Assembly: GCA_937928165.1 (NCBI GenBank)
Contig: CALFVT010000006.1
Span: 62,001-126,000, forward strand
Origin: an uncultured Caulobacterales bacterium
GTDB taxonomy: Bacteria > Pseudomonadota > Alphaproteobacteria > Caulobacterales > Maricaulaceae
DNA: 64,000 bases
Direction: 5' to 3'
Positions 24,033-38,946 of this stretch are shown in pieces. The notes beneath the pieces are model-generated. The model was not told the origin of the DNA. It worked only from the letters and a program-made list of their open reading frames with translations, and did no database searches. Both the position numbers and the translations under genes were made by a program. Position 1 is the stretch's first letter; each line of letters starts with the position of its first letter.

Positions 24033-24149
24033 GCATTCATCAAGACCGACCGAGAGACAGGCTCTATGACGTCGGGGCAACCTTGTGAGGGCGAAAGTCC
24101 GGGACGGTTGGTGCCAAATCCTGCGCAGATTTGCGGAAGATGACGATGC
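24033..24149 (+). ncRNA. SAM riboswitch of the SAM-I (S-box) clan
   Basis: The closing stem P1 is GCAT-TCATC (24033-24041) with GATGA-CG-ATGC (24139-24149). The core has the S-box landmarks in order: TCATCAAGA, the P2 arms CCGAC...GTCGG, GGGGCAACC, GGTTGGTGCCAAATCC and GGAAGATGA. It lies 72 bases before metX. No T run follows, so transcription termination is not evident. The metX ribosome site GGAG (24210-24213) sits between two GGCC runs that can pair, which fits translational control. The aptamer type is by consensus recall; the variant class (SAM-I, SAM-IV or SAM-I/IV) is not settled. Confidence 0.85.
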
Positions 24150-25186: not shown

Positions 25187-26344
25187 ATGAGCAAAAAACC
25201 CAATATTCAAACCCAAATCATACAGGCGGACATCGGCGCAGACCCGGCCTACGGCGCGGTTGCCCCGCCGCTTTATACAAGCTCAACTTATCTTTGGCCA
25301 AGCACGTCTGAGAAAGGGCCTTATGATTATGGCCGAAGCAACAACCCTAACCGCGACGGGCTTGCGCGGGCTTTGGCTGCCCTTGAAGGCGGAGCGCAGG
25401 CCGTCATAACCTCATCAGGCATGAGCGCCGTTGATTTATGCCTGAACCTAATCAAAGCCGATGATCTTATTATCGCGCCCCATGATTGCTACGGCGGAAC
25501 CTACCGCCTACTCGATCACCGCGCCCGACAAGGCCGCATCCGTGTCAAATTTATCGACCAATCAGATGACGCTGCCTTAAAGGTAGCTCTGGCGGAAAAA
25601 CCCGCCATGGTCTTAATCGAGACTCCGTCTAATCCGCTCATGCGGCTTGTGGATATTGCGGCCATCGCCCGCGCGGCCAAAGCCGTCGGCGCGATTGTCG
25701 CGGCGGATAACACCTTCCTCTCCCCTGCGCGCCAAAAGCCGCTAGAGCTGGGCTGCGATCTGGTCATTCATTCAACGACAAAATACCTTAACGGGCATAG
25801 TGATGTGGTCGGCGGAGCCGTAATTGCCATAGATAAAACCCACGGGGAGGCGCTAGACTGGTGGGCAAATTGCACCGGCGTCACCGCGAGCCCCTTTGAT
25901 GCGTGGCAGACCCTGCGCGGGCTTCGGACATTAAATATCCGCATGGATGCCCAAGAAGCCAATGCTCTGGCGATTGCGCAATATCTTCAAAGCCATAACG
26001 CCGTCACCCGAATTTACTATCCGGGACTTAAAAATGATCCGGGCTATACGCTGATGCAAGCGCAGCAATCCGGGCCCGGAGCTATGCTATCCTTTGAAGC
26101 CTCAACTCCGCAGCAAGCCGCGAAGATTATGGAGGGCGTGAAAATCTTTCGCCTCGCCGCCTCTTTAGGGGGCGTTGAAAGCCTAATCTGCCAGCCTTCG
26201 ACCATGACCCACCGGGGCATGGCAGACACCGCCCGGCTTAAGGCCGGAATCACCGACAACCTCATCCGCCTTTCCGTAGGGCTGGAGGCACAAACGGACT
26301 TGATAAATGATTTATCGCAGGCTTTACCCAGTTTAAAGGGATAA
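25187..26344 (+). CDS. metB: Cystathionine gamma-synthase (MetB-type Cys/Met PLP enzyme)
   Basis: Joins activated homoserine to cysteine to give cystathionine. 385 residues. The PLP lysine is K199 in HSTTKYLNGHSDVVGG. The region ASLGGVESLICQPSTMTHRG is closest to MetB, and the NPNRDGLARALAALEGG segment is standard for the family. A cystathionine beta-lyase or O-acylhomoserine sulfhydrylase role cannot be excluded by motif alone. The ATG at 25187 is preferred to an in-frame ATG at 25154 that lies inside metX; AAAGGCGG precedes it. It is co-transcribed with metX under the SAM riboswitch. Confidence 0.87.
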   Translation: MSKKPNIQTQIIQADIGADPAYGAVAPPLYTSSTYLWPSTSEKGPYDYGRSNNPNRDGLARALAALEGGAQAVITSSGMSAVDLCLNLIKADDLIIAPHDCYGGTYRLLDHRARQGRIRVKFIDQSDDAALKVALAEKPAMVLIETPSNPLMRLVDIAAIARAAKAVGAIVAADNTFLSPARQKPLELGCDLVIHSTTKYLNGHSDVVGGAVIAIDKTHGEALDWWANCTGVTASPFDAWQTLRGLRTLNIRMDAQEANALAIAQYLQSHNAVTRIYYPGLKNDPGYTLMQAQQSGPGAMLSFEASTPQQAAKIMEGVKIFRLAASLGGVESLICQPSTMTHRGMADTARLKAGITDNLIRLSVGLEAQTDLINDLSQALPSLKG

Positions 26345-26456
26345 CTTGGGTATAATTTACTACAACAGGCTCTTTTTTATTTAATAAAGGGAAATTTTTT
26401 GCTTGTTCTTGAGTGAGATTTAAGCTTTAAAGGCAGCGAATAAGAGGTTTCATTTT

Positions 26457-26555
26457 ATGGCACGTCCTGCCGATATGATTAGACGCAATGAACTCGCAGC
26501 TAAAGCTGTGATTATTCTTGTGGACGGTCTACTACTCATTCAAATGGGTCGTTAA
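26457..26555 (+). CDS. ilvL: Branched-chain amino acid leader peptide (32 aa)
   Basis: An ATG preceded by AGAGG opens 32 codons: MARPADMIRRNELAAKAVII then LVDGLLLIQMGR. Residues 18-22 (V-I-I-L-V) and 25-28 (L-L-L-I) are runs of the very amino acids made by the operon, and two of the Leu codons are CTA. It lies between metB and ilvD and is followed at once by alternative hairpins. The E. coli ilvL peptide has the same logic. The symbol is used by analogy of function, not by sequence identity. Confidence 0.85.
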   Translation: MARPADMIRRNELAAKAVIILVDGLLLIQMGR

Positions 26556-26622
26556 AGCGGGATGTAAATAAATATTACGAATGATTATCACCCCGCTCTT
26601 CGCAAGATTAGCGGGTTTTTTT
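26534..26622 (+). promoter_or_regulatory. Transcription attenuator of the ilv-leu cluster
   Basis: Three mutually exclusive pairings are visible. ACTCATT with AATGGGT (26534-26549) overlaps the last leader codons. The antiterminator is AGCGGG (26556-26561) with CCCGCT (26592-26597). The terminator is the same CCCGCT with AGCGGG (26610-26615), followed by seven T (26616-26622). A ribosome stalled on Ile/Val/Leu codons would favour the antiterminator; one that finishes the leader would favour the terminator. ilvD starts 35 bases later. Confidence 0.85.
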
Positions 26623-26657
26623 ATGGCTAGACAGTCATAAAAGAGAAAGGACATTTC

Positions 26658-28331
26658 ATGAGCTCAAAACGCTCAGACGCGATTATTAAAGGCCCTTCCC
26701 GCGCCCCGGCGCGGGCGATGCTGCGCGCCGCTGGCCTAAATGATGAGAATTTCAACGGCCCGCTGATCGCCGTATTTAATACATGGACCAATATGGGGCC
26801 ATGTAATATGGATTTAGATAAGCTCGCTGTTCCCGTGCGGGCAGGCATACGCGCCGCAGGGGGCACACCGATAGATTTTAATTCCATCGCCGTATCAGAC
26901 GGCATTACAATGGGCAGTGAAGGCATGCGCGCGAGCTTGATATCCCGCGACGTTATAACGGATTCCATTGAGCTTGCCGTCAAAGGCCACAGCCTTGACG
27001 GGGTGATTATTTTGGTTGCTTGCGATAAAACAATCCCGGCTGCGGCCATGGCTTTAGCGCGGATGAATGTACCCGGCGTCGTGGTTTACGGGGGCTCTAT
27101 CATGCCCGGCCAGCACAAAGGCAAAGACCTGTCTGTGCAAGATGTGTTCGAAGCTGTTGGCGCTTGTGCGGCTGGCATTATCGACGCGGCCGAACTCACT
27201 GAGATTGAAAAAGCCGCTTGCCCCGGCGCAGGGGCGTGCGGAGGGCAATTTACCGCCAATTCCATGGCCATGGCCATGACCTTTTTAGGGCTCTCGCCCA
27301 TGGGGCTCAATGATATTCCCGCCGTTGATGCGGGTAAAAATGACGCCGCCTTTAAAGCGGGAGAGCTTGTAGTCGACTGCGTGAAAGAAAACCGCTTGCC
27401 GCGAGATATGATCACCAAAGCGGCTTTGATGAATGCGGCCACGGCGCTTTCGGCAACGGCGGCTTCGACCAATGCGATATTGCATTTGCTCGCGATTGCC
27501 AGCGAAGCGGGAGTTAAAGACTTTGATATTGACGCCTTTGACGCGGTTTCCCGCAGCACGCCTGTCATTGGCGATTTAAAACCTGGCGGACGATATATGG
27601 CCTATGATCTTTACAAGGCCGGCGGCTCTGCTCTTGTTGGCCGCCGCCTCCTTGAGGCCGGATGGATAGACAATAGCCCCACCGTCACAGGTCGGTCTTT
27701 ATTTGAAGAAGTCATGAACGCCCCCGAAACAAAAGGCCAAGATGTCATCCGCCCATGGGAGGCCCCTGTCAAATCACGCGGGGGTTACGGCATACTCTAC
27801 GGCGATCTCGCCCCTGAAGGCTGCGTGGTCAAACTCGCGGGGCATGGGGATTTATTCTTCGAAGGCACAGCCCGCGTGTTTGATAGTGAAGAAGCCTGTT
27901 TCGAAGTCGTACAGAAAAACGGCATCCAAAAAGGTGATGTGGTGATTATTCGCAATGAAGGCCCAGCAGGCGGCCCTGGCATGCGCGAAATGTTAGGGGT
28001 GACCGCTGCCCTTGTCGGGCAAGACCTTGCCGATCATGTGGCGCTCATTACAGACGGGCGGTTCTCCGGCGCGTCCTACGGTTTTGTTATCGGCCATGTT
28101 GCCCCAGAAGCGGCGCGCGGCGGGCCGATTGCCCTTGTGCAAGACGGGGATAAAATTACTATCGACGTGGAAGCCCGCACCATTAATGTTGACTTTGATA
28201 TTGCCGCACGCGCCAAAAATTGGACACCGCCCAAACCTCGCTACCCGAGCGGCGCTTATGCTAAATTTGCCAAACTTGTTGGCAGCGCCTCAAAAGGCGC
28301 TGTCACCTCATTCCCATTTGACCAAGACTAA
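26658..28331 (+). CDS. ilvD: Dihydroxy-acid dehydratase
   Basis: Dehydrates 2,3-dihydroxy-3-methyl-butanoate or -pentanoate to the keto acids of Val and Ile. 557 residues with iron-sulfur ligands C49 (NMGPCN), C122 (ACDKTIPA) and C194 (CPGAGACGG), and the C-terminal signature [20 protein letters not shown]. The cluster type (2Fe-2S or 4Fe-4S) is not evident. It is the first structural gene after the attenuator, with ilvC 9 bases behind it. Confidence 0.96.
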
Positions 28332-29366
<1,035 letters not shown>

Positions 29367-29410
29367 AAAGTTACATTGTAAAGTGCTCTCATCACACTCA
29401 TATGCCCTTA

Positions 29411-29501
29411 CCCTAAGGCCGCCGCAAAGCAGCGGGAACTCCAAAGGCCGCTTTGTGCATGATCCTTCGAGACGCGGCTCCGCCGCTCTTCAGGATGAGG
29501 G
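29411..29501. repeat. 91-bp REP-like palindromic element, copy 1
   Basis: Runs from CCCTAAGGCCGCCGCAAAGC to CTTCAGGATGAGGG with GATCCTTCGAGACGCGGCTC in the middle. A second copy of the same length stands at 31522-31612 in the next intergenic space of the operon. The CCTTCGAGACGCGG...CAGGATGAGG core is a widespread alphaproteobacterial extragenic palindrome. Confidence 0.85.
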
Positions 29502-29552
29502 AGTTGGGGGTTGCGGTAAAACTGAGCAAACTAAATTGTTTAATAATCCGCT

Positions 29553-29619
29553 CATTCCAGCGAAAGCTGGAATCCAGTCCAGACATAAATCCGCTTGGAC
29601 CCCAAATCAAGTTTGGGGT
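29553..29619. repeat. REP-like element with two hairpins, copy 1
   Basis: CATTCCAGCGAAAGCTGGAA makes one hairpin and CCCCAAATCAAGTTTGGGG another, about 30 bases apart. A partial copy is at 31667-31699 and a full variant at 33858-33922, all between genes of this one cluster. The first hairpin is the familiar alphaproteobacterial extragenic palindrome family. Confidence 0.82.
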
Positions 29620-29650
29620 GAGCGGGGTTTAACAACAAGGACACATAACC

Positions 29651-29766
29651 AAGAGGCGAGGAGCGCCGTAGGCGCGACAGGGAAACATCAAGAGGCGAGG
29701 AGCGCCGTAGGCGTGACCGGGATACATCAAGAGGCGAGGAGCGCGTAAGCGCGACAGGGAAATATA
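29651..29766. repeat. Three-unit 39-bp hairpin repeat array ending at the ilvB start
   Basis: Units begin at 29651, 29690 and 29729 (39, 39 and 38 bp). Each reads AAGAGGCGAGG, then a variable hairpin (GCGCCGTAGGCGC in unit 1, GCGCGTAAGCGC in unit 3), then GACAGGGAAA or a close form. The last unit ends at the base before the ilvB ATG, so its GACAGGGA serves as the ribosome site. A related array precedes ilvN. Confidence 0.93.
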
Positions 29767-31491
29767 ATGACCACAGCGAAGCAATTCGATAAACAGCAAA
29801 CGGAAATTCTTGAAAACCGTGAGCCCAAGTCTGGCTCGCAGCTTTTGCTTGAATCCATTGCGGTGCAGGGCGTGGATATGATTTTCGGCTATCCGGGCGG
29901 GGCGATTATGCCGGTCTATGATGTGCTGCCGAAGTATCCCAAGCTGCGCCATATTCTCTGCCGTCATGAGCAAGGCTGCGGCATGGCGGCGATTGGCTAT
30001 GCCCGCGCCACAGGGCGGACAGGCACGGCTTTTGCCACCTCTGGCCCCGGCGCAACCAACCTCGTCACTGCCATTGCCGATGCCTATCTTGATAGTGTCC
30101 CCGTGGTTTTTGTCACCGGGCAAGTGCCGTCAAATTTGATGGGAACTGACGCCTTTCAAGAGGTGGATATTTTCGGCATTACCCTGCCGATTGTTAAACA
30201 TAGCTATATTGTGCGCGACCCCGCCGATATTCCCGGCATGATCGCGGAGGCTTATTTTATCGCCGCAGAAGGCCGGCCCGGCCCTGTGCTCATTGACCTG
30301 CCCAAAGACGTGGCCAATGCCGTGACGACCCAAAGACACCGCTGGCGGCCCTATCCTAAGGTCAAGCCTGAAATGGGGCAAAGCGCGGATATTGCCGCCG
30401 CCGAAGACCTCATCCGCGCCGCCAAAAAACCACTATTTTATATTGGCGGCGGGATTGCCCAAGGGGACGGCGTCGAGGAACTGCGCGCCCTTGTGGAGCG
30501 AACCGAAATTCCCGTGGTTTCCACCTTAAAAGGCCTTGGGTCTTTGCCGTCCGATCATCCGCATTACCTCGGTATGCTCGGGATGCACGGACTAAAGGCG
30601 GCCAATTATGCGGTGCAGGAATGTGATCTTTTAATTGTCGCCGGCGCGCGCTTTGATGACCGCGCGACAGGCAAGCTTGATACCTTTGCGCCGCTCGCCA
30701 AAGTCATTCACATGGATATTGACGTGGCCGAAATTAATAAACTGCGGCGAGTCAATGTCGGGCTTGACGGGAGCCTGAAGAAAAACCTTGCCGCGCTTAA
30801 TCCCGGCAAAACGAAATGTGATGACTGGCGCGAGCTATGTTATGATCGCCGCGCGGAATATGAGTGGGATTATACGGGGGCGCAGGCCAAGGCCGCCCCT
30901 GGCATTTACGCGCCCAAGCTATTGCATGACCTCTCTCGCCGCGCAGATAAAAGTGCGGTGATCACCTGTGATGTCGGGCAGCACCAAATGTGGGTGGCCC
31001 AGCATTGCTATTTCGATAATCCAAAAGATCACATCACCAGCGGCGGCCTCGGCACCATGGGTTTTGGCCTGCCCGCAGGACTTGGGGCCAAGCTCGGTAC
31101 GCCGGAGCGTACGGTCATTACAGTTTCGGGCGACGGCTCCATCATGATGAATATCCAAGAGCTTGCGACCCTGAACCGCTACGGCATTGCACTTAAAATC
31201 GTGCTGCTGGATAACTCCGTGCTCGGCATGGTACGCCAGTGGCAGGAAGTGTTTTTTGATAAAAACTATTCCGAAACGACGTTAGATGATAACCCCGATT
31301 TCGCCCTTGTCGCCAAAGCCTTTCAAATCGACGCCTTTAGCGTCAATACCGCCGATGAAATGGATGCGGGCATTGACCGCTTGCTCAATACCAACGGACC
31401 TGTGCTCATGCATGTCAAAATTGACCCCAATGAAAATGTCTGGCCCCTCGTCCCTCCTGGCCGCAGCAATGCGGATATGATGGAGCGGTAG
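29767..31491 (+). CDS. ilvB: Acetolactate synthase large subunit (IlvG-like)
   Basis: ThDP/FAD enzyme making acetolactate or acetohydroxybutyrate from pyruvate. 574 residues. Landmarks are FGYPGGAIMPVYD, LCRHEQGCGMAAIGYARATG with the ThDP glutamate, ATSGPGATNLVT, the FAD region, and the ThDP diphosphate motif GDGSIMMNIQELATL, then LGMVRQWQEVFF. The wording of the N-terminal motifs is nearest to E. coli IlvG (AHAS II), and the short regulatory partner agrees. Its ribosome site comes from the third unit of the upstream repeat array. Confidence 0.95.
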   Translation: MTTAKQFDKQQTEILENREPKSGSQLLLESIAVQGVDMIFGYPGGAIMPVYDVLPKYPKLRHILCRHEQGCGMAAIGYARATGRTGTAFATSGPGATNLVTAIADAYLDSVPVVFVTGQVPSNLMGTDAFQEVDIFGITLPIVKHSYIVRDPADIPGMIAEAYFIAAEGRPGPVLIDLPKDVANAVTTQRHRWRPYPKVKPEMGQSADIAAAEDLIRAAKKPLFYIGGGIAQGDGVEELRALVERTEIPVVSTLKGLGSLPSDHPHYLGMLGMHGLKAANYAVQECDLLIVAGARFDDRATGKLDTFAPLAKVIHMDIDVAEINKLRRVNVGLDGSLKKNLAALNPGKTKCDDWRELCYDRRAEYEWDYTGAQAKAAPGIYAPKLLHDLSRRADKSAVITCDVGQHQMWVAQHCYFDNPKDHITSGGLGTMGFGLPAGLGAKLGTPERTVITVSGDGSIMMNIQELATLNRYGIALKIVLLDNSVLGMVRQWQEVFFDKNYSETTLDDNPDFALVAKAFQIDAFSVNTADEMDAGIDRLLNTNGPVLMHVKIDPNENVWPLVPPGRSNADMMER

Positions 31492-31521
31492 GCGTGTTTC
31501 CAATAATGTTATACCCCCTCA

Positions 31522-31612
31522 CCCTGAGGCCGCCGCAAAGCGGTGGGGACTCGAAGGCTGGCTTCATGCATAATCCTTCGAGACGCGGCAACGCCGCTCC
31601 TCAGGATGAGGG
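31522..31612. repeat. 91-bp REP-like palindromic element, copy 2
   Basis: Same structure and length as the element at 29411-29501: CCCTGAGGCCGCCGCAAAGC at one end, TAATCCTTCGAGACGCGGCA in the middle, CTCAGGATGAGGG at the other end. It differs by scattered substitutions, several of them compensatory in the stem (GGCTGG...CCTTCGAG arms). It lies between ilvB and ilvN. Confidence 0.86.
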
Positions 31613-31666
31613 ATATTGGGGCTTCCGAAAAATTATAGCGTCGGAATCATTTAATTATCGCCCGCT

Positions 31667-31699
31667 CATTCTAGCGAAAGCTGGAATCCAGAATAGGGA
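31667..31699. repeat. REP-like hairpin, partial copy 2
   Basis: CATTCTAGCGAAAGCTGGAA followed by TCCAGAATAGGGAT. It matches the first hairpin of the element at 29553 but lacks the CCCCAAATCAAGTTTGGGG half. It adjoins the second 39-41 bp repeat array. Confidence 0.78.
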
Positions 31700-31707
31700 T
31701 AAATAAC

Positions 31708-31828
31708 AAGAGGCGAGGAGGTGCATTAGCACCGACCGAGAATACATCAAGAGGCGAGGAGCGCCGAAGGCGCGACAGGGATAAATAACAAGAGGCGAAG
31801 AGCGCCAAAGGCACGACAGGGATAAACA
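31708..31828. repeat. Three-unit 39-41 bp hairpin repeat array ending at the ilvN start
   Basis: Units begin at 31708, 31749 and 31790 (41, 41 and 39 bp). They keep AAGAGGCGAGG and GACAGGGATAAA but vary the hairpin: GGTGCATTAGCACC, GCGCCGAAGGCGC, GCGCCAAAGGCAC. The stem is preserved by paired changes in the first two. The last unit stops at the base before the ilvN ATG and supplies its ribosome site, exactly as in front of ilvB. Confidence 0.93.
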
Positions 31829-32131
31829 ATGACCGAACTTCAACGCGATAAAACATTCGAGCCATCGGGCGTTCAGGGCAAGCTCAAGATCGTACTTCAT
31901 GACGTCTCGGGCACGCTTATCCGCGCACTCGGCACCATAGAGCGGCGGGGTTATGATTACCGAGATGTGCATTGCACACAGCGGGTCGACGGCGATTTTG
32001 ATTTGCTTGTCCATATTGAAGATACGGGCGGGCCGAATGATTTATCCACGCTATGCCTTCAGCTAGAGCGGCTTTATAATGTCGTGAGCGCCGAGCGCGT
32101 AGGCCGCCGCCACCGCGCGGAACATGCATGA
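31829..32131 (+). CDS. Acetolactate synthase small subunit, short ACT-only form (IlvM-like)
   Basis: 100 residues: one ACT-type domain (KLKIVLHDVSGTLIRALGTI, ERRGYDYRDVHCTQ, then LCLQLERLYNVVSAERV) and a basic tail RRHRAEH. Usual alphaproteobacterial IlvN/IlvH proteins are about 160-185 residues with a second C-terminal domain; this one is near the size of E. coli IlvM (87). IlvM activates its catalytic subunit without strong valine inhibition, so weak feedback is expected here, but that is inferred. Being next to an IlvG-like large subunit supports the assignment. Confidence 0.83.
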   Translation: MTELQRDKTFEPSGVQGKLKIVLHDVSGTLIRALGTIERRGYDYRDVHCTQRVDGDFDLLVHIEDTGGPNDLSTLCLQLERLYNVVSAERVGRRHRAEHA

Positions 32132-32283: not shown

Positions 32284-33831
32284 ATGATTGATTACGTACG
32301 AATCTTTGACACCACTTTGCGGGACGGCGAGCAGGCCCCCGGCTTTTCTATGACCGCGGGGCAGAAACTGCGTATGGCAGAGAAAATCGCGGCCATGGGC
32401 GCGGATATTATTGAGGCCGGATTTGCCGCCGCCTCCCCCGGTGATTTTGACGCCATTCAAGGCATTGCCGCCCATATTGACGGGCCTGTGATTTGCTCTC
32501 TCTCGCGGGCCACATCCGGCGATATTCATGCCTCTGGTAAGGCCATTGCCCCGGCCAAGCGGCAGCGCATTCATACCTTTATTGCCACCTCCCCCCTGCA
32601 CCGGGAATATAAATTAAAGATGAGCAAAAACGAGATTCTTGACCGCGCCGTCGCTGCCGTCAAGCTCGCCCTCGAATACACGGATGATGTGGAGTTTTCT
32701 GCCGAAGATGCCATCCGCACAGAGCGGGAATACCTTAAAGACGTGTTTGAAGCGGTGATCGAAGTCGGCGCGACGACGATTAATGTGCCTGATACGGTGG
32801 GTTATACCACCCCCGAAGAAATACAGGATTTATTTGAATATCTCTCCAGCATTAAAGGCGCAGATAAGGTGATCCTCTCCACCCATTGTCATAATGATTT
32901 AGGCTTGGCCGTCGCCAATTCCCTTGCCGCCCTACGGGGCGGGGCGCGGCAGATTGAAGGGGCGCTGAACGGTATTGGCGAGCGCGCCGGAAATTCCGCC
33001 ATTGAAGAAATCATCATGGCGCTGAAAACACGGCAGGATTTCTTTAACGTCAAAATGAATAATATTGCCACCGATCAAATCTATAGCGCGTCAAAGCTGT
33101 TATCAGCCATTACGGGTAATCCCGTACAGCGCAATAAGGCGATTGTTGGGAAAAATGCTTTTGCCCATGAAAGCGGCATTCACCAACACGGAATTTTAGC
33201 CAACCGCGAGACTTATGAAATCATGAAGCCTGAAGATATCGGTATCTCTGAGGAAAACATTATCTTGGGCAAACATTCGGGCCGCGCCGCGCTGAACTCT
33301 CGCGCGGAAAAACTCGGCTTTACCCTTGCCGATAATCAGCTCCAATCAGTCTTTGTAGAATTTAAAAAACTCGCTGATGAAAAGCGCGAAGTTTTTGACG
33401 GCGATCTTGAAGCCCTCATCTTAGGCCAAGCCGTCGGCGCGGGCGGGCCGTGGACATTACAAAGCCTCTATGTCGCCGCGGGTTCCGATGCGGGGCGGCA
33501 ACCCGAAGCCACTGTGCGCCTCATCCATGAAGACGGGCGCGAAGAAACCGCCGTCAAGACCGCCGCCGGGCCGATCAACGCCGCCTTCATGGCCATATCT
33601 GCCGCTGCGGGCCTGCCCCTAAAGCTAGAGCATTTCTCCGCCCAATCGGTAACGGGCGGGAAGGACGCGATGGCCGAGTCGACTGTGCGCGTCAGTACGG
33701 AATTTGAAACCTATCAAGGCTTTGGCACAAGCACGGATACGATCTTGGCGGGGGCAAAGGCCTATCTGGATGTGATTAATCGCATAGAGCGCCGCGCTGT
33801 CCGCCAAGCCTCCATCGCGGCGCAGCATTAA
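32284..33831 (+). CDS. leuA: 2-isopropylmalate synthase
   Basis: First committed step of leucine synthesis, condensing acetyl-CoA with 2-ketoisovalerate. 515 residues. The TIM-barrel start VRIFDTTLRDGEQAPGFSM and the metal-binding HCHNDLGLAVANSLAAL are intact, as is the GNSAIEEIIMAL region. The C-terminal LeuA dimer/allosteric domain is present (from about residue 385: GPWTLQSLYVAAGSDAG), so leucine inhibition is likely. It is closest in layout to LeuA type I rather than to homocitrate or citramalate synthase. Confidence 0.95.
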   Translation: MIDYVRIFDTTLRDGEQAPGFSMTAGQKLRMAEKIAAMGADIIEAGFAAASPGDFDAIQGIAAHIDGPVICSLSRATSGDIHASGKAIAPAKRQRIHTFIATSPLHREYKLKMSKNEILDRAVAAVKLALEYTDDVEFSAEDAIRTEREYLKDVFEAVIEVGATTINVPDTVGYTTPEEIQDLFEYLSSIKGADKVILSTHCHNDLGLAVANSLAALRGGARQIEGALNGIGERAGNSAIEEIIMALKTRQDFFNVKMNNIATDQIYSASKLLSAITGNPVQRNKAIVGKNAFAHESGIHQHGILANRETYEIMKPEDIGISEENIILGKHSGRAALNSRAEKLGFTLADNQLQSVFVEFKKLADEKREVFDGDLEALILGQAVGAGGPWTLQSLYVAAGSDAGRQPEATVRLIHEDGREETAVKTAAGPINAAFMAISAAAGLPLKLEHFSAQSVTGGKDAMAESTVRVSTEFETYQGFGTSTDTILAGAKAYLDVINRIERRAVRQASIAAQH

Positions 33832-34000: not shown

Positions 34001-34420
34001 ATGACAAAGTACTTTAAATACCTCAGAGTTTTTACCGCCACTCTTTTAATAATAACGGTGGTTATAAGATTTATATCCATGCTCGGCTTTAAAGGGTTTG
34101 ATGGCCCGTTAGCCCATTATTTTAATTACACCTTTGAATTAAATAAAATTTCCCTCGCAAGTTTATTAGCCCTCATTTTATTTATTGATTTTGAAATAAA
34201 ATTTAACTCAGTAACAAAAGTAATCATGCGGTGTCTCAGTGCGCTCGCTATTATTTTAACCATAATTGGATTCGCAGGCTTAACGCGGCAGTTATTATAC
34301 TCTGGCTGGGACATAATTTATTTTCAGTTTTATTTATTTCAGCTTGCTTATCTCTTAGTCGCGGTTCTTATTTTCACTAAGACATCTCATGCCGCCTTGC
34401 CAAAGGACGATCATGCCTAA
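34001..34420 (+). CDS. Uncharacterised four-helix membrane protein inside the leu operon
   Basis: 139 residues with four hydrophobic helices (FTATLLIITVVIRFISMLG; ISLASLLALILFIDF; CLSALAIILTIIGFAGL; FQFYLFQLAYLLVAVLIF). The DNA is strikingly AT-rich beside its neighbours (TTA, ATA and ATT codons dominate), suggesting a recent arrival. Its stop lies 8 bases inside leuC, whose ATG is within its last codons, so leuC translation is now coupled to it. No family is recognised; transport of a branched-chain intermediate is only a guess. Confidence 0.68.
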   Translation: MTKYFKYLRVFTATLLIITVVIRFISMLGFKGFDGPLAHYFNYTFELNKISLASLLALILFIDFEIKFNSVTKVIMRCLSALAIILTIIGFAGLTRQLLYSGWDIIYFQFYLFQLAYLLVAVLIFTKTSHAALPKDDHA

Positions 34421-35801
34421 AACCCTTTTCGATAAAGTTTGGGCGCGCCATATTGTGACGCCGGAAACGGCAACCCATCCGGCTGTGTTTTATATTGACC
34501 TCCATCTCATTCATGAGGTCACGAGCCCGCAGGCCTTCACCGCCCTCAAGGAGCGCAGCCTGACCGTGCGCCGTCCTGACAGAACCCTTGCGACCATTGA
34601 CCATTCAACGCCGACAAAAATAAACTCGGACGGCAGCCGCCCTTATGTCACCGCGCAGGCGGAGCGGCAGGTTCAGACCCTACTCGGTAACACACGCGCC
34701 CACGGCATTGAGACCCATGGTTGGGAGAGTGAAAACAGAGGCATTGTTCACGTCATGGGGCCAGAGCTTGGCGCGACCCAGCCGGGCATGAGCATTGTTT
34801 GCGGGGATAGCCATACCTCTACCCACGGGGCCTTTGGGGCGATTGCTTTTGGGATTGGCACCACCCAAGTCGGGCATGTGCTGGCCACCCAAACTATTCT
34901 GATGCGTAAACCCAAAACCATGGCCATTCATGTCAATGGAGAGCTGGGCGCGGGCATTACCCCCAAAGATGTCATCTTGCATATCATCGCCGAGATTGGC
35001 GTCGGCGGCGGCACGGGCTATGCGCTGGAATACCGGGGGAATGTATTCGAGGACATGAGCATGGATGGCCGCATGACCGTGTGTAATATGTCCATCGAGG
35101 CGGGCGCGCGCTGCGGCATGATTGCGCCGGATGAGGTCACATTTAATTATATAAAGGGCCGCAAATTTGCCCCCAAAGACTACGCCGCCGCCTGTGAAGA
35201 CTGGCGCTCATTACGCACTGATAACGGCGCTGTTTTTGATAAAGAGGTGCGTATCAAAGCCGAGGACATAAAACCTATGGTCACTTACGGCACCCACCCC
35301 GGTATGGGCATAGCGATTGATAATTTCATTCCCAAGGCGGGCACAAAAGCCGACCAAGCCGCCCTTGATTACATGCGCCTTAGCAGCGGAGCCGCCATTG
35401 CGGGAACCCGCGCAGATAAAGTCTTTATTGGCTCTTGCACCAATAGCCGCCTTGATGATTTACGCGCCGCCGCTGCGCTTTTAAAAGGGCAAACAGTCAC
35501 GATCGAAACCATCATTGTCCCCGGCTCTGCCTTAATAAAGGCACAAGCCGAAGCAGAAGGGCTGGACGCTATTTTCACCGCCGCCGGGGCGCAGTGGCGT
35601 GAAGCCGGATGCTCCATGTGCTTAGGCATGAACGGCGACATTGGCACGCCGGGGGATTTAGTGGTTTCCACATCCAACCGCAACTTTATGGGCCGTCAAG
35701 GCCCGGGCGTGCGCACAGTGCTCGCCTCCCCCGAAACAGCTGCGGCCTCTGCGATTACAGGGGTCATTACCGATCCCCGTAAAATAGGAGAGGCCGCATG
35801 A
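34413..35801 (+). CDS. leuC: 3-isopropylmalate dehydratase large subunit
   Basis: Aconitase-family large subunit for isomerising 2- to 3-isopropylmalate. 462 residues. The 4Fe-4S ligands are C342 (GSCTNSRL), C400 and C403 (CSMCLGMN). HIVTPETATHPAVFYIDLHL near the start and VCGDSHTSTHGAFGAIAFGIG are standard. The ATG at 34413, with AGGA before it, is preferred to a start 24 bases upstream. The gene overlaps the preceding one by 8 bases and leuD by 4 (ATGA). Confidence 0.96.
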   Translation: MPKTLFDKVWARHIVTPETATHPAVFYIDLHLIHEVTSPQAFTALKERSLTVRRPDRTLATIDHSTPTKINSDGSRPYVTAQAERQVQTLLGNTRAHGIETHGWESENRGIVHVMGPELGATQPGMSIVCGDSHTSTHGAFGAIAFGIGTTQVGHVLATQTILMRKPKTMAIHVNGELGAGITPKDVILHIIAEIGVGGGTGYALEYRGNVFEDMSMDGRMTVCNMSIEAGARCGMIAPDEVTFNYIKGRKFAPKDYAAACEDWRSLRTDNGAVFDKEVRIKAEDIKPMVTYGTHPGMGIAIDNFIPKAGTKADQAALDYMRLSSGAAIAGTRADKVFIGSCTNSRLDDLRAAAALLKGQTVTIETIIVPGSALIKAQAEAEGLDAIFTAAGAQWREAGCSMCLGMNGDIGTPGDLVVSTSNRNFMGRQGPGVRTVLASPETAAASAITGVITDPRKIGEAA

Positions 35802-36379
35802 GCTTCAAACCCTTAACAATTATCACGTCCAAAACACTCGTGTTACAGGCAGCCAATATTGACACCGACCAAATCATGCCCGCTAAGTTTTTATCCATGA
35901 CCACTAAGGCCGGGCTTGGGGAGCATGTTTTTGCCAATTTACGTTACGGCCCCGATGGAGAGCTCACTGATCACACGCTGAATAGTGAGGCGGGAAAGGC
36001 GTGCGAAATTCTCGTGGCGGGGCATAATTTTGGTTGCGGCTCATCGCGCGAACATGCCCCGTGGGGCCTCACCGATTACGGCTTTCGCGTGGTCATATCC
36101 TCAGAGATCGCCGATATTTTTCGCAGCAATTCTTTGAAAAACGGCCTGTTGCCGATTGTCATCGAAAAAAGCGCGCATCAATGGCTATTGGATCATCCGG
36201 GTGAAGAAGTTACCGTTGACCTGAAAACGTGCGAACTGCGCCTGCCTAAAAATGGCGGCAGTTATAAATTTAGCGTCGATAGCTTTTCCCGCCACTGCCT
36301 CATGGAAGGGCTAGATGAAATGGGTTACCTCCTTGGGCAAGACGCAGCGATTACAGAATTTGAGGCGCGTCATGGCTGA
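35798..36379 (+). CDS. leuD: 3-isopropylmalate dehydratase small subunit
   Basis: 193 residues, full length. It has ANIDTDQIMPAKFL and the swivelling-domain signature GHNFGCGSSREHAPWGL, and forms the active isomerase with LeuC. The start overlaps the leuC stop (ATGA), and its own stop overlaps the leuB start by 8 bases, so the three are tightly coupled. Confidence 0.97.
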   Translation: MSFKPLTIITSKTLVLQAANIDTDQIMPAKFLSMTTKAGLGEHVFANLRYGPDGELTDHTLNSEAGKACEILVAGHNFGCGSSREHAPWGLTDYGFRVVISSEIADIFRSNSLKNGLLPIVIEKSAHQWLLDHPGEEVTVDLKTCELRLPKNGGSYKFSVDSFSRHCLMEGLDEMGYLLGQDAAITEFEARHG

Positions 36380-37424
36380 TATTCATTTCACTTACCTGCC
36401 CGGTGACGGTATCGGGCCGGAGGTCGGGGCAGCAGCAATTCACGTCCTTAAAGCGATGGCTGAAAAATTTGGCCATAGCCTTAAGATAGAAAAGCATCTC
36501 ATTGGCGGCGCGGCGATTGATGCGGGGCTTAAACCTTTGCCCGATGAGACATTCACAAGCTGCGCGCGGACAGAGGCAATTTTGCTCGGCGCTGTGGGCG
36601 GGCCAAAATGGGATCATTTGACAGGCGCAGAGCGGCCAGAACTTGGCTCGCTTTTGCCGCTTCGCAAACGGCTTAATCTTTATGCCAATATTCGCCCCTG
36701 CGCCCCCCATCCGGCGCTTATTGACCGCGCCCCCCTTAAACGTGAGCGCCTTGAAGGGACTGACTTTATCGTTATGCGCGAGCTGACTGGCGGGATTTAT
36801 TTCGGCGATAAGGGCCGCGATAATATAGGCGCATATGATGAGTGCCGCTATAGCGAAGCGGAAGTGCGCCGCATTGCTGTTAAGGCGTTTGACCTTGCGC
36901 GCGGGCGCAAGAAGAAAGTCACCAGCGTTGATAAATCCAATGTGCTAGAGACCTCCCGCCTTTGGCGCGAAACCGTTAATGACGTTGCCCGCAGCTACCC
37001 CGATGTGGAGCTAGAGCATTTACTTGTCGATGCTATGACCATGCATATGCTCACCCGCGCGCAGGATTTTGATATCATCCTCACAGAGAACATGTTTGGC
37101 GATATCCTCACCGATGAAGCCTCTGTTTTGGCCGGCTCTATGGGCGTCGTGCCGTCAGCCTCCATCTCCGATGGACGCATGGGCCTTTACGAGCCGATAC
37201 ATGGCAGCGCGCCGGATATTACGGGGCAAGACAAGGCCAACCCGATCGCCATGATCCTCTCCGCCGCATGGATGCTGCGCCTGTCCTTTGGCCTAAACGC
37301 CGAAGCCGCCGCTATCGAATCCGCCGTAGACGCAGCCCTGACAGGGGGGCATTGCACCGCCGATATTGGCGGAACCCTCGGCACGCAGGCAACTGGGCAA
37401 TGGATTGCAGATCATGTCGGTTAG
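36372..37424 (+). CDS. leuB: 3-isopropylmalate dehydrogenase
   Basis: NAD-dependent oxidative decarboxylation of 3-isopropylmalate. 350 residues from the ATG at 36372, which gives the standard opening ADIHFTYLPGDGIGPEVG. An upstream in-frame ATG inside leuD is not used by homologues. Other motifs are LLGAVGGPKWD, RELTGGIYFGDKG, and the metal/NAD segment NMFGDILTDEASVLAGSMG, then PIHGSAPDI. Its last 11 bases overlap ilvA. Confidence 0.96.
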   Translation: MADIHFTYLPGDGIGPEVGAAAIHVLKAMAEKFGHSLKIEKHLIGGAAIDAGLKPLPDETFTSCARTEAILLGAVGGPKWDHLTGAERPELGSLLPLRKRLNLYANIRPCAPHPALIDRAPLKRERLEGTDFIVMRELTGGIYFGDKGRDNIGAYDECRYSEAEVRRIAVKAFDLARGRKKKVTSVDKSNVLETSRLWRETVNDVARSYPDVELEHLLVDAMTMHMLTRAQDFDIILTENMFGDILTDEASVLAGSMGVVPSASISDGRMGLYEPIHGSAPDITGQDKANPIAMILSAAWMLRLSFGLNAEAAAIESAVDAALTGGHCTADIGGTLGTQATGQWIADHVG

Positions 37425-38946
37425 GCCGCTCAATATTGACCTCAAAGAGCTTGTTCGGCGGATTGACCGCGCAGTGATTTACGACCTCGCCAAGGAAACA
37501 CCCTGTGAGCTTGCGGCGTCCATCAGCACAGATAAACACCATATTTGGCTCAAGCGAGAAGACCTCCAAGATGTGTTCTCCTTTAAAATTCGCGGAGCCG
37601 CCAACCGTATGGCAAGCCTAAGCCAAGCGCAGCTCGACGCGGGCGTTTGCGCGGCCAGCGCCGGAAATCACGCCCAAGGCATCGCCGCCTCGGCCCGTCA
37701 CTACGGGGCCAAAGCGGTGATTTTCATGCCTGTCACCACCCCGCCGATTAAGGTCAATGCAGTGCAAAGCTTTGGCGTGCAAACCCGTCTTATTGGGGAT
37801 AGTTATGACGCCGCCTGCGCGGCGGCCCTTGACTACGCACAGAAAACCGGCGCGGTTTTCATCCACCCTTTTGACGAGATTGACGTCATTGCTGGGCAAG
37901 GCACAGTGGGTAAGGAAATCCTTAAGACCACTCCCAACCCCGCCGCCATTTATGTCTGTACCGGCGGCGGCGGGCTTGTCTCTGGCATTGGCAGCTATGT
38001 TAAAGCCAAAGCTCCAGCGTGCCAAATCATCGCCTGTGAAGCCGCCGGCGCGCCGACCTTAGAGCGCGCCCTCGCCGCGGGCCAGCCCATCTCATTAAAG
38101 ACCATTGACGGTTTTGCCGACGGTACAGCGGTGCGCCGCATTGGTGATCTCACCTTTGATATTGCCCGCCGGGTCGTTGACCGCTCCCGCCTTGTTACTA
38201 ACGACGAAATTTCAGCGGCTGTACGGCAAATTTTTCAGCTTACCCGCACCATTGTCGAGCCCGCTGGCGCTTTGGCATTGGCCGCCTGCCTTAAAGATAT
38301 TCAAGACGGCAGCGCCCCCGAAGGCGACCTTATCGTGACCCTGTCGGGGGCCAATGTTAATTTTGACCGAATTGGCCATATTGTCGAGCGAGCAGAACTT
38401 GGCGCGGGCGGGGAAATGCTTTTTGCCGCGAGTCTGCCTGAAAAACCCGGTGCCTTTCTTAATTTCATCACCGCCATCGGCAGCCGCGCGATTACCGAAT
38501 TTAATTATCGTTACCGCGATAACGCCCGCGCCCATGTACTTGTCGGCGTAAAGCTACGGGCAGCGACTGAAAAATCCGCCGTATTTAGCGATATGAACGC
38601 CGCCGGACTTGATGTTTTTGATCTCTCCCATGACCGGCTCTCCAAACGCCACCTTCGCCATATGGTCGGCGGACGGGGCAGCGCCGATATTCCCGAAGTA
38701 ATTTATAGTTTTGAATTTCCCGAACGCCCCGGCGCGCTCTCGGATTTTCTGCGGGCGCTGAATAACCGCTGGAATATCTCCCTCTTTCATTACCGTAACC
38801 ATGGGGCGTCAACGGGGCATGTGCTTTGCGGGTTTCAAACCCCCAAAGGGGATGTCGCCGCCCTTGAAGCCAGTCTATCGCAAACTCAATACCCTATGAG
38901 ACGCGAAACCGATAACATGGCCTATGAAGCCTTTTTGCGCGGCTAG
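37414..38946 (+). CDS. ilvA: Threonine dehydratase, biosynthetic form with two ACT-like regions
   Basis: PLP-dependent deamination of threonine to 2-ketobutyrate, the entry to isoleucine. 510 residues. The PLP lysine is K58 in FSFKIRGAANRM; the phosphate loop is AGNHAQG and the glycine loop is CTGGGGLVSG. Two C-terminal ACT-like repeats are visible (LPEKPGAFLNFITAIGSRAI and FPERPGALSDFLRALNNRWN), so isoleucine control is expected. The start at 37414 overlaps the end of leuB; an upstream in-frame ATG is unlikely. Its position at the end of a leu operon is unusual and links all three branched-chain acids to one transcript. Confidence 0.94.
   Translation: MSVRPLNIDLKELVRRIDRAVIYDLAKETPCELAASISTDKHHIWLKREDLQDVFSFKIRGAANRMASLSQAQLDAGVCAASAGNHAQGIAASARHYGAKAVIFMPVTTPPIKVNAVQSFGVQTRLIGDSYDAACAAALDYAQKTGAVFIHPFDEIDVIAGQGTVGKEILKTTPNPAAIYVCTGGGGLVSGIGSYVKAKAPACQIIACEAAGAPTLERALAAGQPISLKTIDGFADGTAVRRIGDLTFDIARRVVDRSRLVTNDEISAAVRQIFQLTRTIVEPAGALALAACLKDIQDGSAPEGDLIVTLSGANVNFDRIGHIVERAELGAGGEMLFAASLPEKPGAFLNFITAIGSRAITEFNYRYRDNARAHVLVGVKLRAATEKSAVFSDMNAAGLDVFDLSHDRLSKRHLRHMVGGRGSADIPEVIYSFEFPERPGALSDFLRALNNRWNISLFHYRNHGASTGHVLCGFQTPKGDVAALEASLSQTQYPMRRETDNMAYEAFLRG

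Follow-up and report, generated by a model that had tools for sequence, protein, structure and literature searches.

The ilv-leu cluster and its upstream region

The window, i.e. the whole stretch of 64,000 nucleotides analysed here, comes from a genome of the Robiginitomaculum/Hellea kind as judged by IlvD similarity, which is not an independent taxonomic assignment. The initial annotation described a leader followed by a ten-gene ilv-leu cluster including ilvA and leuABCD, and NCBIfam and Pfam confirmed the ten genes 3' of the leader in the order ilvD-ilvC-ilvG-ilvM-leuA-orf-leuC-leuD-leuB-ilvA:

26658..28331, + strand: ilvD, dihydroxy-acid dehydratase (NCBIfam/Pfam)
28341..29366, + strand: ilvC, ketol-acid reductoisomerase (NCBIfam/Pfam)
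29767..31491, + strand: ilvG, acetolactate synthase large subunit (NCBIfam/Pfam; the sole one found in the assembly)
31829..32131, + strand: ilvM-like small subunit with ACT_5 (NCBIfam/Pfam)
32284..33831, + strand: leuA, 2-isopropylmalate synthase (NCBIfam/Pfam)
34001..34420, + strand: orf between leuA and leuC, 139-aa protein containing hydrophobic stretches, without family match
34389..35801, + strand: leuC (NCBIfam/Pfam)
35798..36379, + strand: leuD (NCBIfam/Pfam)
36315..37424, + strand: leuB (NCBIfam/Pfam)
37366..38946, + strand: ilvA, threonine dehydratase with regulatory C-terminal domain (NCBIfam/Pfam)

The 139-aa protein has a relative at the same place (37%) only in locus L114. Since a single acetolactate synthase-type catalytic gene is present in the assembly (completeness about 96%), and it lies inside this cluster, the leader probably sets the flux to Ile, Val and Leu. 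Both the ilvC-ilvG gap and the ilvG-ilvM gap hold repeats that are present elsewhere in the genome; tandem 39-41 bp repeats (CAAGAGGCGAGGAGCGCC...) with repeat DNA at their flanks lie at 29650-29762 and 31695-31826, and partial copies occur at about 15 other genome places.

Upstream of the leader lie metX and metB, the latter ending at 26344, about 110 nt 5' of the leader. A SAM-I (S-box) riboswitch (Rfam, 70.8 bits) was identified at 24034-24146 on the + strand, upstream of metX-metB, and SAM-I riboswitches also precede metX in two further loci (L117:103-225 and L115:567-690). No terminator-like site is listed by the scan for the metB-leader interval, and thus the SAM riboswitch and the ilv element could act in series.

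A leader frame rich in branched-chain codons

Re-reading of the sequence placed the leader frame, the three hairpin arms and the T tail exactly, to the base, where the initial annotation had put them. The features at the 5' side of the element are the following:

26347..26356, + strand: likely -10 region TGGGTATAAT of the leader promoter, right behind the metB stop (sequence reading; weak)
26442..26447, + strand: Shine-Dalgarno-like AAGAGG, 5' of the leader frame
26457..26555, + strand: ilvL leader peptide, 32 sense codons MARPADMIRRNELAAKAVIILVDGLLLIQMGR plus TAA (ILV-rich frames are also found in all readable close relatives)

This leader peptide, of a kind that gene callers miss, starts at the ATG at 26457-26459 and stops at the TAA at 26553-26555. 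It thus represents a short translatable frame with consecutive codons for the pathway products, preceded by a Shine-Dalgarno-like site and containing two runs, Val-Ile-Ile-Leu-Val (VIILV) at 26508-26522 and Leu-Leu-Leu-Ile (LLLI) at 26529-26540; altogether Ile, Val or Leu account for 11 of its 32 residues. In 24 close leaders such codons make up 37% of the total, as compared with 21% in the ilvD genes of the same loci. An emphasis on rare codons was also considered and set aside, the share of CTA among Leu codons rising only mildly, from 7% in the genes of the cluster and the met genes to 12% in the close leaders.

The window leader contains an earlier in-frame TAA, after which AGC GGG ATG TAA continues in the same frame (26553-26567), and its stop therefore lies four codons upstream of that of most relatives. 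In most close relatives the segment designated below as strand 2 falls within the last codons (Ser-Gly-Ile/Phe/Met/Thr-stop), and one other leader (L046) has an early stop resembling that of the window. A ribosome at the earlier stop of the window would still cover strand 2.

No good -35 box was found for the leader promoter, and the candidate -10 region is absent from the list of the consensus scan, so transcription could also come from metX-metB.

An intrinsic terminator and a competing hairpin

The 3' side of the element consists of three short arms and a T tail, to which a possible fourth arm inside the leader can be added:

26463..26470, + strand: possible strand 1 CGTCCTGC, which could pair with 26557-26564 of strand 2 (a weak candidate in the window, without family-wide conservation)
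26556..26561, + strand: strand 2, AGCGGG, antiterminator 5' arm abutting the stop codon (sequence)
26592..26597, + strand: strand 3, CCCGCT, common to antiterminator and terminator (sequence, folding)
26610..26615, + strand: strand 4, AGCGGG, terminator 3' arm (sequence, folding)
26616..26622, + strand: seven-T tail of the intrinsic terminator (sequence, terminator scan)

As expected for an attenuator, an intrinsic terminator (26592-26622) lies between the leader and the first structural gene. Its hairpin folds with -13.2 kcal/mol (z -2.55), and the alternative hairpin at 26556-26597, which shares strand 3 with it, with -9.8 kcal/mol (z -2.51). Strand 2 starts 15 nt past the Ile codon that ends the LLLI run, the corresponding distance from the last codon of the ILV cluster in relatives having a median of 8 nt (5-95%: -1 to 14). 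With a commonly used ribosome footprint size, this geometry would leave strand 2 free when the ribosome sits on the control codons and covered when it sits at the stop. The pairing of strands 2 and 3 in the window is borderline when taken alone (shuffle p 0.06); the case for attenuation rests on the family.

The initial annotation saw here the full classic layout of attenuation, which proved slightly too strong: the terminator (3:4) and the antiterminator (2:3) stand, whereas the protector hairpin (1:2) is not supported in the family. Strand 1:2 pairing reaches a codon-shuffle p of 0.04 in the window and is possible in a few relatives, e.g. Algimonas (L040, L043); a search in all 58 family members detected by the procedure described below returned p values of 0.05 or less in only 7, with no conserved strand 1.

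A riboswitch or a T-box sensing the amino acid or the tRNA directly could use the same terminator, and precedents are at hand in the SAM riboswitch upstream of metX and in the T-box that regulates ilv-leu in Bacillus subtilis (PMC6123439). Nonetheless, the region 26340-26700 gave no T-box or riboswitch match even at the permissive threshold, only chance-level ones, and the conserved part of the element is an ILV coding run with short arms instead of an aptamer, which makes direct sensing extremely improbable. Rfam searches at gathering and permissive thresholds likewise assigned no family to the window leader, Leu_leader, Thr_leader and Trp_leader included, and Thr_leader appeared below cut-off in three relatives.

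Distribution among relatives

The element was sought with a detector that demands an intrinsic terminator, a segment upstream of it that can pair with the terminator 5' arm, and a short ILV frame, in which a stretch of seven residues includes at least five Ile/Val/Leu and whose end lies close to the pairing segment. It fires at 58 of 102 distinct ilvD loci, always within 460 bases upstream of ilvD; its off-target matches in the background, which consisted of 668 kb of ilvD loci, were none on the sense strand and two on the antisense strand. Visual inspection or slightly relaxed rules added seven further elements, and the one of L117 (the same locus as L009) was missed by the detector and is visible by eye. 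Within the IlvD clade of the window (29 members in the tree), the element is present in 27 of the 27 loci with readable upstream DNA, the contigs of the other two ending 50-56 nt upstream of ilvD, so that no clade member is known without it. The relatives thus keep both the peptide and the alternative pairings, as the initial annotation demanded of its own proposal, and this conservation across relatives supports its reading of the element as a putative ribosome-mediated attenuator.

Named alphaproteobacterial carriers are Hellea, Algimonas, Robiginitomaculum, Maricaulis, Marinicaulis, Parvularcula, Aquisalinus, Citromicrobium and Novosphingopyxis, and gammaproteobacterial carriers are Wenzhouxiangellaceae, Arenimonas and Chiayiivirga. 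In some genomes of the same family (G004, G006, G012, G016, G021, G023 and G035), no acetolactate synthase gave a close match, and ilvD matches were either distant or absent; branched-chain synthesis may have been lost or replaced in them. In one locus (L123, genome G017) a small extra frame, at about 1900-2290 in operon orientation, appears to separate the attenuator terminator from ilvD.

Paired changes of the arms

For the pairing test, terminators were picked without regard to strand 2, and the zone 18-75 bases upstream was scored against strand 3. The own zones averaged 19.8 versus 13.4 for shuffled zones, and the own strand 3 also outscored strands 3 swapped from loci with different arms (17.0; Wilcoxon p 2.6e-8, uncorrected for relatedness). 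Moreover, this zone pairs with strand 3 better than the zone farther upstream does.

The antiterminator arm of the window is shared with its terminator, and the predicted arms of both structures change together between lineages, Gammaproteobacteria included, differing arms recurring in separate lineages. The clearest single case of strand 2/3 pairing is that of Wenzhouxiangellaceae, where strand 2 GGTAGCGGG pairs with strand 3 CCCGCTACC while strand 4 is GGAGCGGGG; the extra A of this strand 3 (CCCCGCTACC) is unpaired in the terminator and finds a matching T in strand 2. In Arenimonas GGTGCGGG is paired with CCCGCACC (also given as GGTGCGGG with CCCCGCACC), and three relatives from the order combine GGGAGC with GCTCCC. 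A covariance model built from 44 elements did not yield any consensus pairs, probably owing to competition between two exclusive structures, and was dropped as a search model.

These changes bear on the possibility that the leader is translated and regulatory and acts mainly through Rho or translation-transcription coupling, the T-tailed hairpin being secondary. The modest antiterminator of the window and the lack of conservation of strand 1 would fit such a view. On the other hand, in the listed relatives the leader is followed by a GC-rich, T-tailed hairpin, whose 5' arm is common to the antiterminator and co-varies with strand 2; we therefore regard a mainly Rho- or coupling-based control as highly unlikely.

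Association with the operon head

Ten close genomes share the arrangement attenuator-ilvD-ilvC-ilvG-ilvM-leuA-(orf)-leuC-leuD-leuB-ilvA, the orf being confined to L114, and most of them carry metX-metB upstream. In five genomes the ilvD gene, kilobases off and on the opposite strand, lacks the element, which is found directly before ilvC; in the close genome of L125 ilvD is likewise outside the cluster, the element precedes ilvC and metB is still upstream. The presence of the element before ilvC where ilvD has left indicates that it tracks the operon head, a move that would be expected of a controller of the operon and not of ilvD alone.

The hairpin could also be no more than the terminator of metX-metB, with the small frame arising by chance or encoding an unrelated small protein. 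The short metB-leader distance with no other listed terminator-like site would be compatible with this, as would the fact that metX-metB precede the element in most close relatives too. However, a plain terminator requires neither the peptide nor strand 2, and loci without an upstream metB match (L116, L120, L121, L122 and L124) retain the ILV-rich frame as well as strand 2, as do those where the element precedes ilvC. A simple metX-metB terminator is thus a very improbable explanation.

With regard to the extent of control, the scan listed no terminator-like site on the + strand in the gaps 29367-29766 and 31492-31828. The kept gene order and these gaps suggest that all ten genes are likely under one sensor, for which we infer their co-transcription; internal promoters may exist within the cluster.

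Discussion

We are highly confident that the element is a ribosome-mediated transcription attenuator, a view based on the parts observed at the locus, their conservation, the paired changes of the arms and the association with the operon head, from which we infer translation of the leader, stalling and control of termination. RNA polymerase would start upstream of 26457 and a ribosome would translate the leader. When charged Ile, Val and Leu tRNAs are plentiful, this ribosome would reach the stop at 26553 with its front covering strand 2, leaving strand 3 to pair with strand 4, so that the terminator would form and transcription would end near 26622. A ribosome stalled in VIILV or LLLI would instead have its front halted just short of strand 2, and the freed strand 2 would pair with strand 3, preventing the terminator and letting the polymerase enter ilvD and the rest of the cluster. 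Where it can form, the strand 1:2 hairpin would favour termination if the leader is untranslated.

The element offers a clean switch of branched-chain amino acid synthesis, accessible to testing, in marine relatives of Hellea and Robiginitomaculum among the Alphaproteobacteria, and the more than 60 similar attenuators constitute a set for studying how these switches follow the rearrangements of their operons. It is tempting to speculate, with about even chances of being right, that they form an uncatalogued family of ilv attenuators in which strands 2, 3 and 4 co-vary and strand 1 is not fixed. Such a family would span Robiginitomaculaceae, Maricaulaceae, Parvularculaceae, some sphingomonads and Wenzhouxiangellaceae/Lysobacteraceae, would stay at the head of the ilv(D)CGM-leu operon even where ilvD has moved away and, in the window genome, would control practically the entire branched-chain pathway through a single leader.

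The mechanism has been known since the 1980s, and attenuation is documented at ilvGMEDA, ilvBN and leuABCD of E. coli and at ilvBN of Caulobacter (PMC6123439, PMC4117421); the attenuator of the window is a well-conserved new example. The ilvB-II, ilvB-OMG and ilvB motifs also have upstream frames rich in branched-chain codons, ilvB-II with a terminator stem (PMC10272879), but the lineage and gene context of the window are different. The E. coli ilvGMEDA leader has 32 aa with 15 branched-chain residues (PMC6123439), and the window resembles it in its 32-codon ILV-rich leader, its terminator/antiterminator switch and an operon with ilvGM, ilvD and ilvA; unlike in E. coli, the gene order differs, ilvC and the leu genes are joined and no family-wide protector hairpin was found. 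In the Caulobacter crescentus ilvBN (ilvIH) attenuator (Tarleton, Malakooti and Ely 1994, as described in PMC4117421), the leader carries tandem Ile and Val codons, and both this system and ours combine an alphaproteobacterial ilv leader with an intrinsic terminator dependent on ribosome pausing. When compared by description, the Caulobacter leader precedes ilvBN, whereas that of the window heads ilvDCGM-leuACDB-ilvA with an ilvGM-type synthase. Finally, proteobacterial amino-acid attenuators were compiled by Vitreschak et al. 2004 (cited in PMC6123439), and by layout the window element belongs to the same class.
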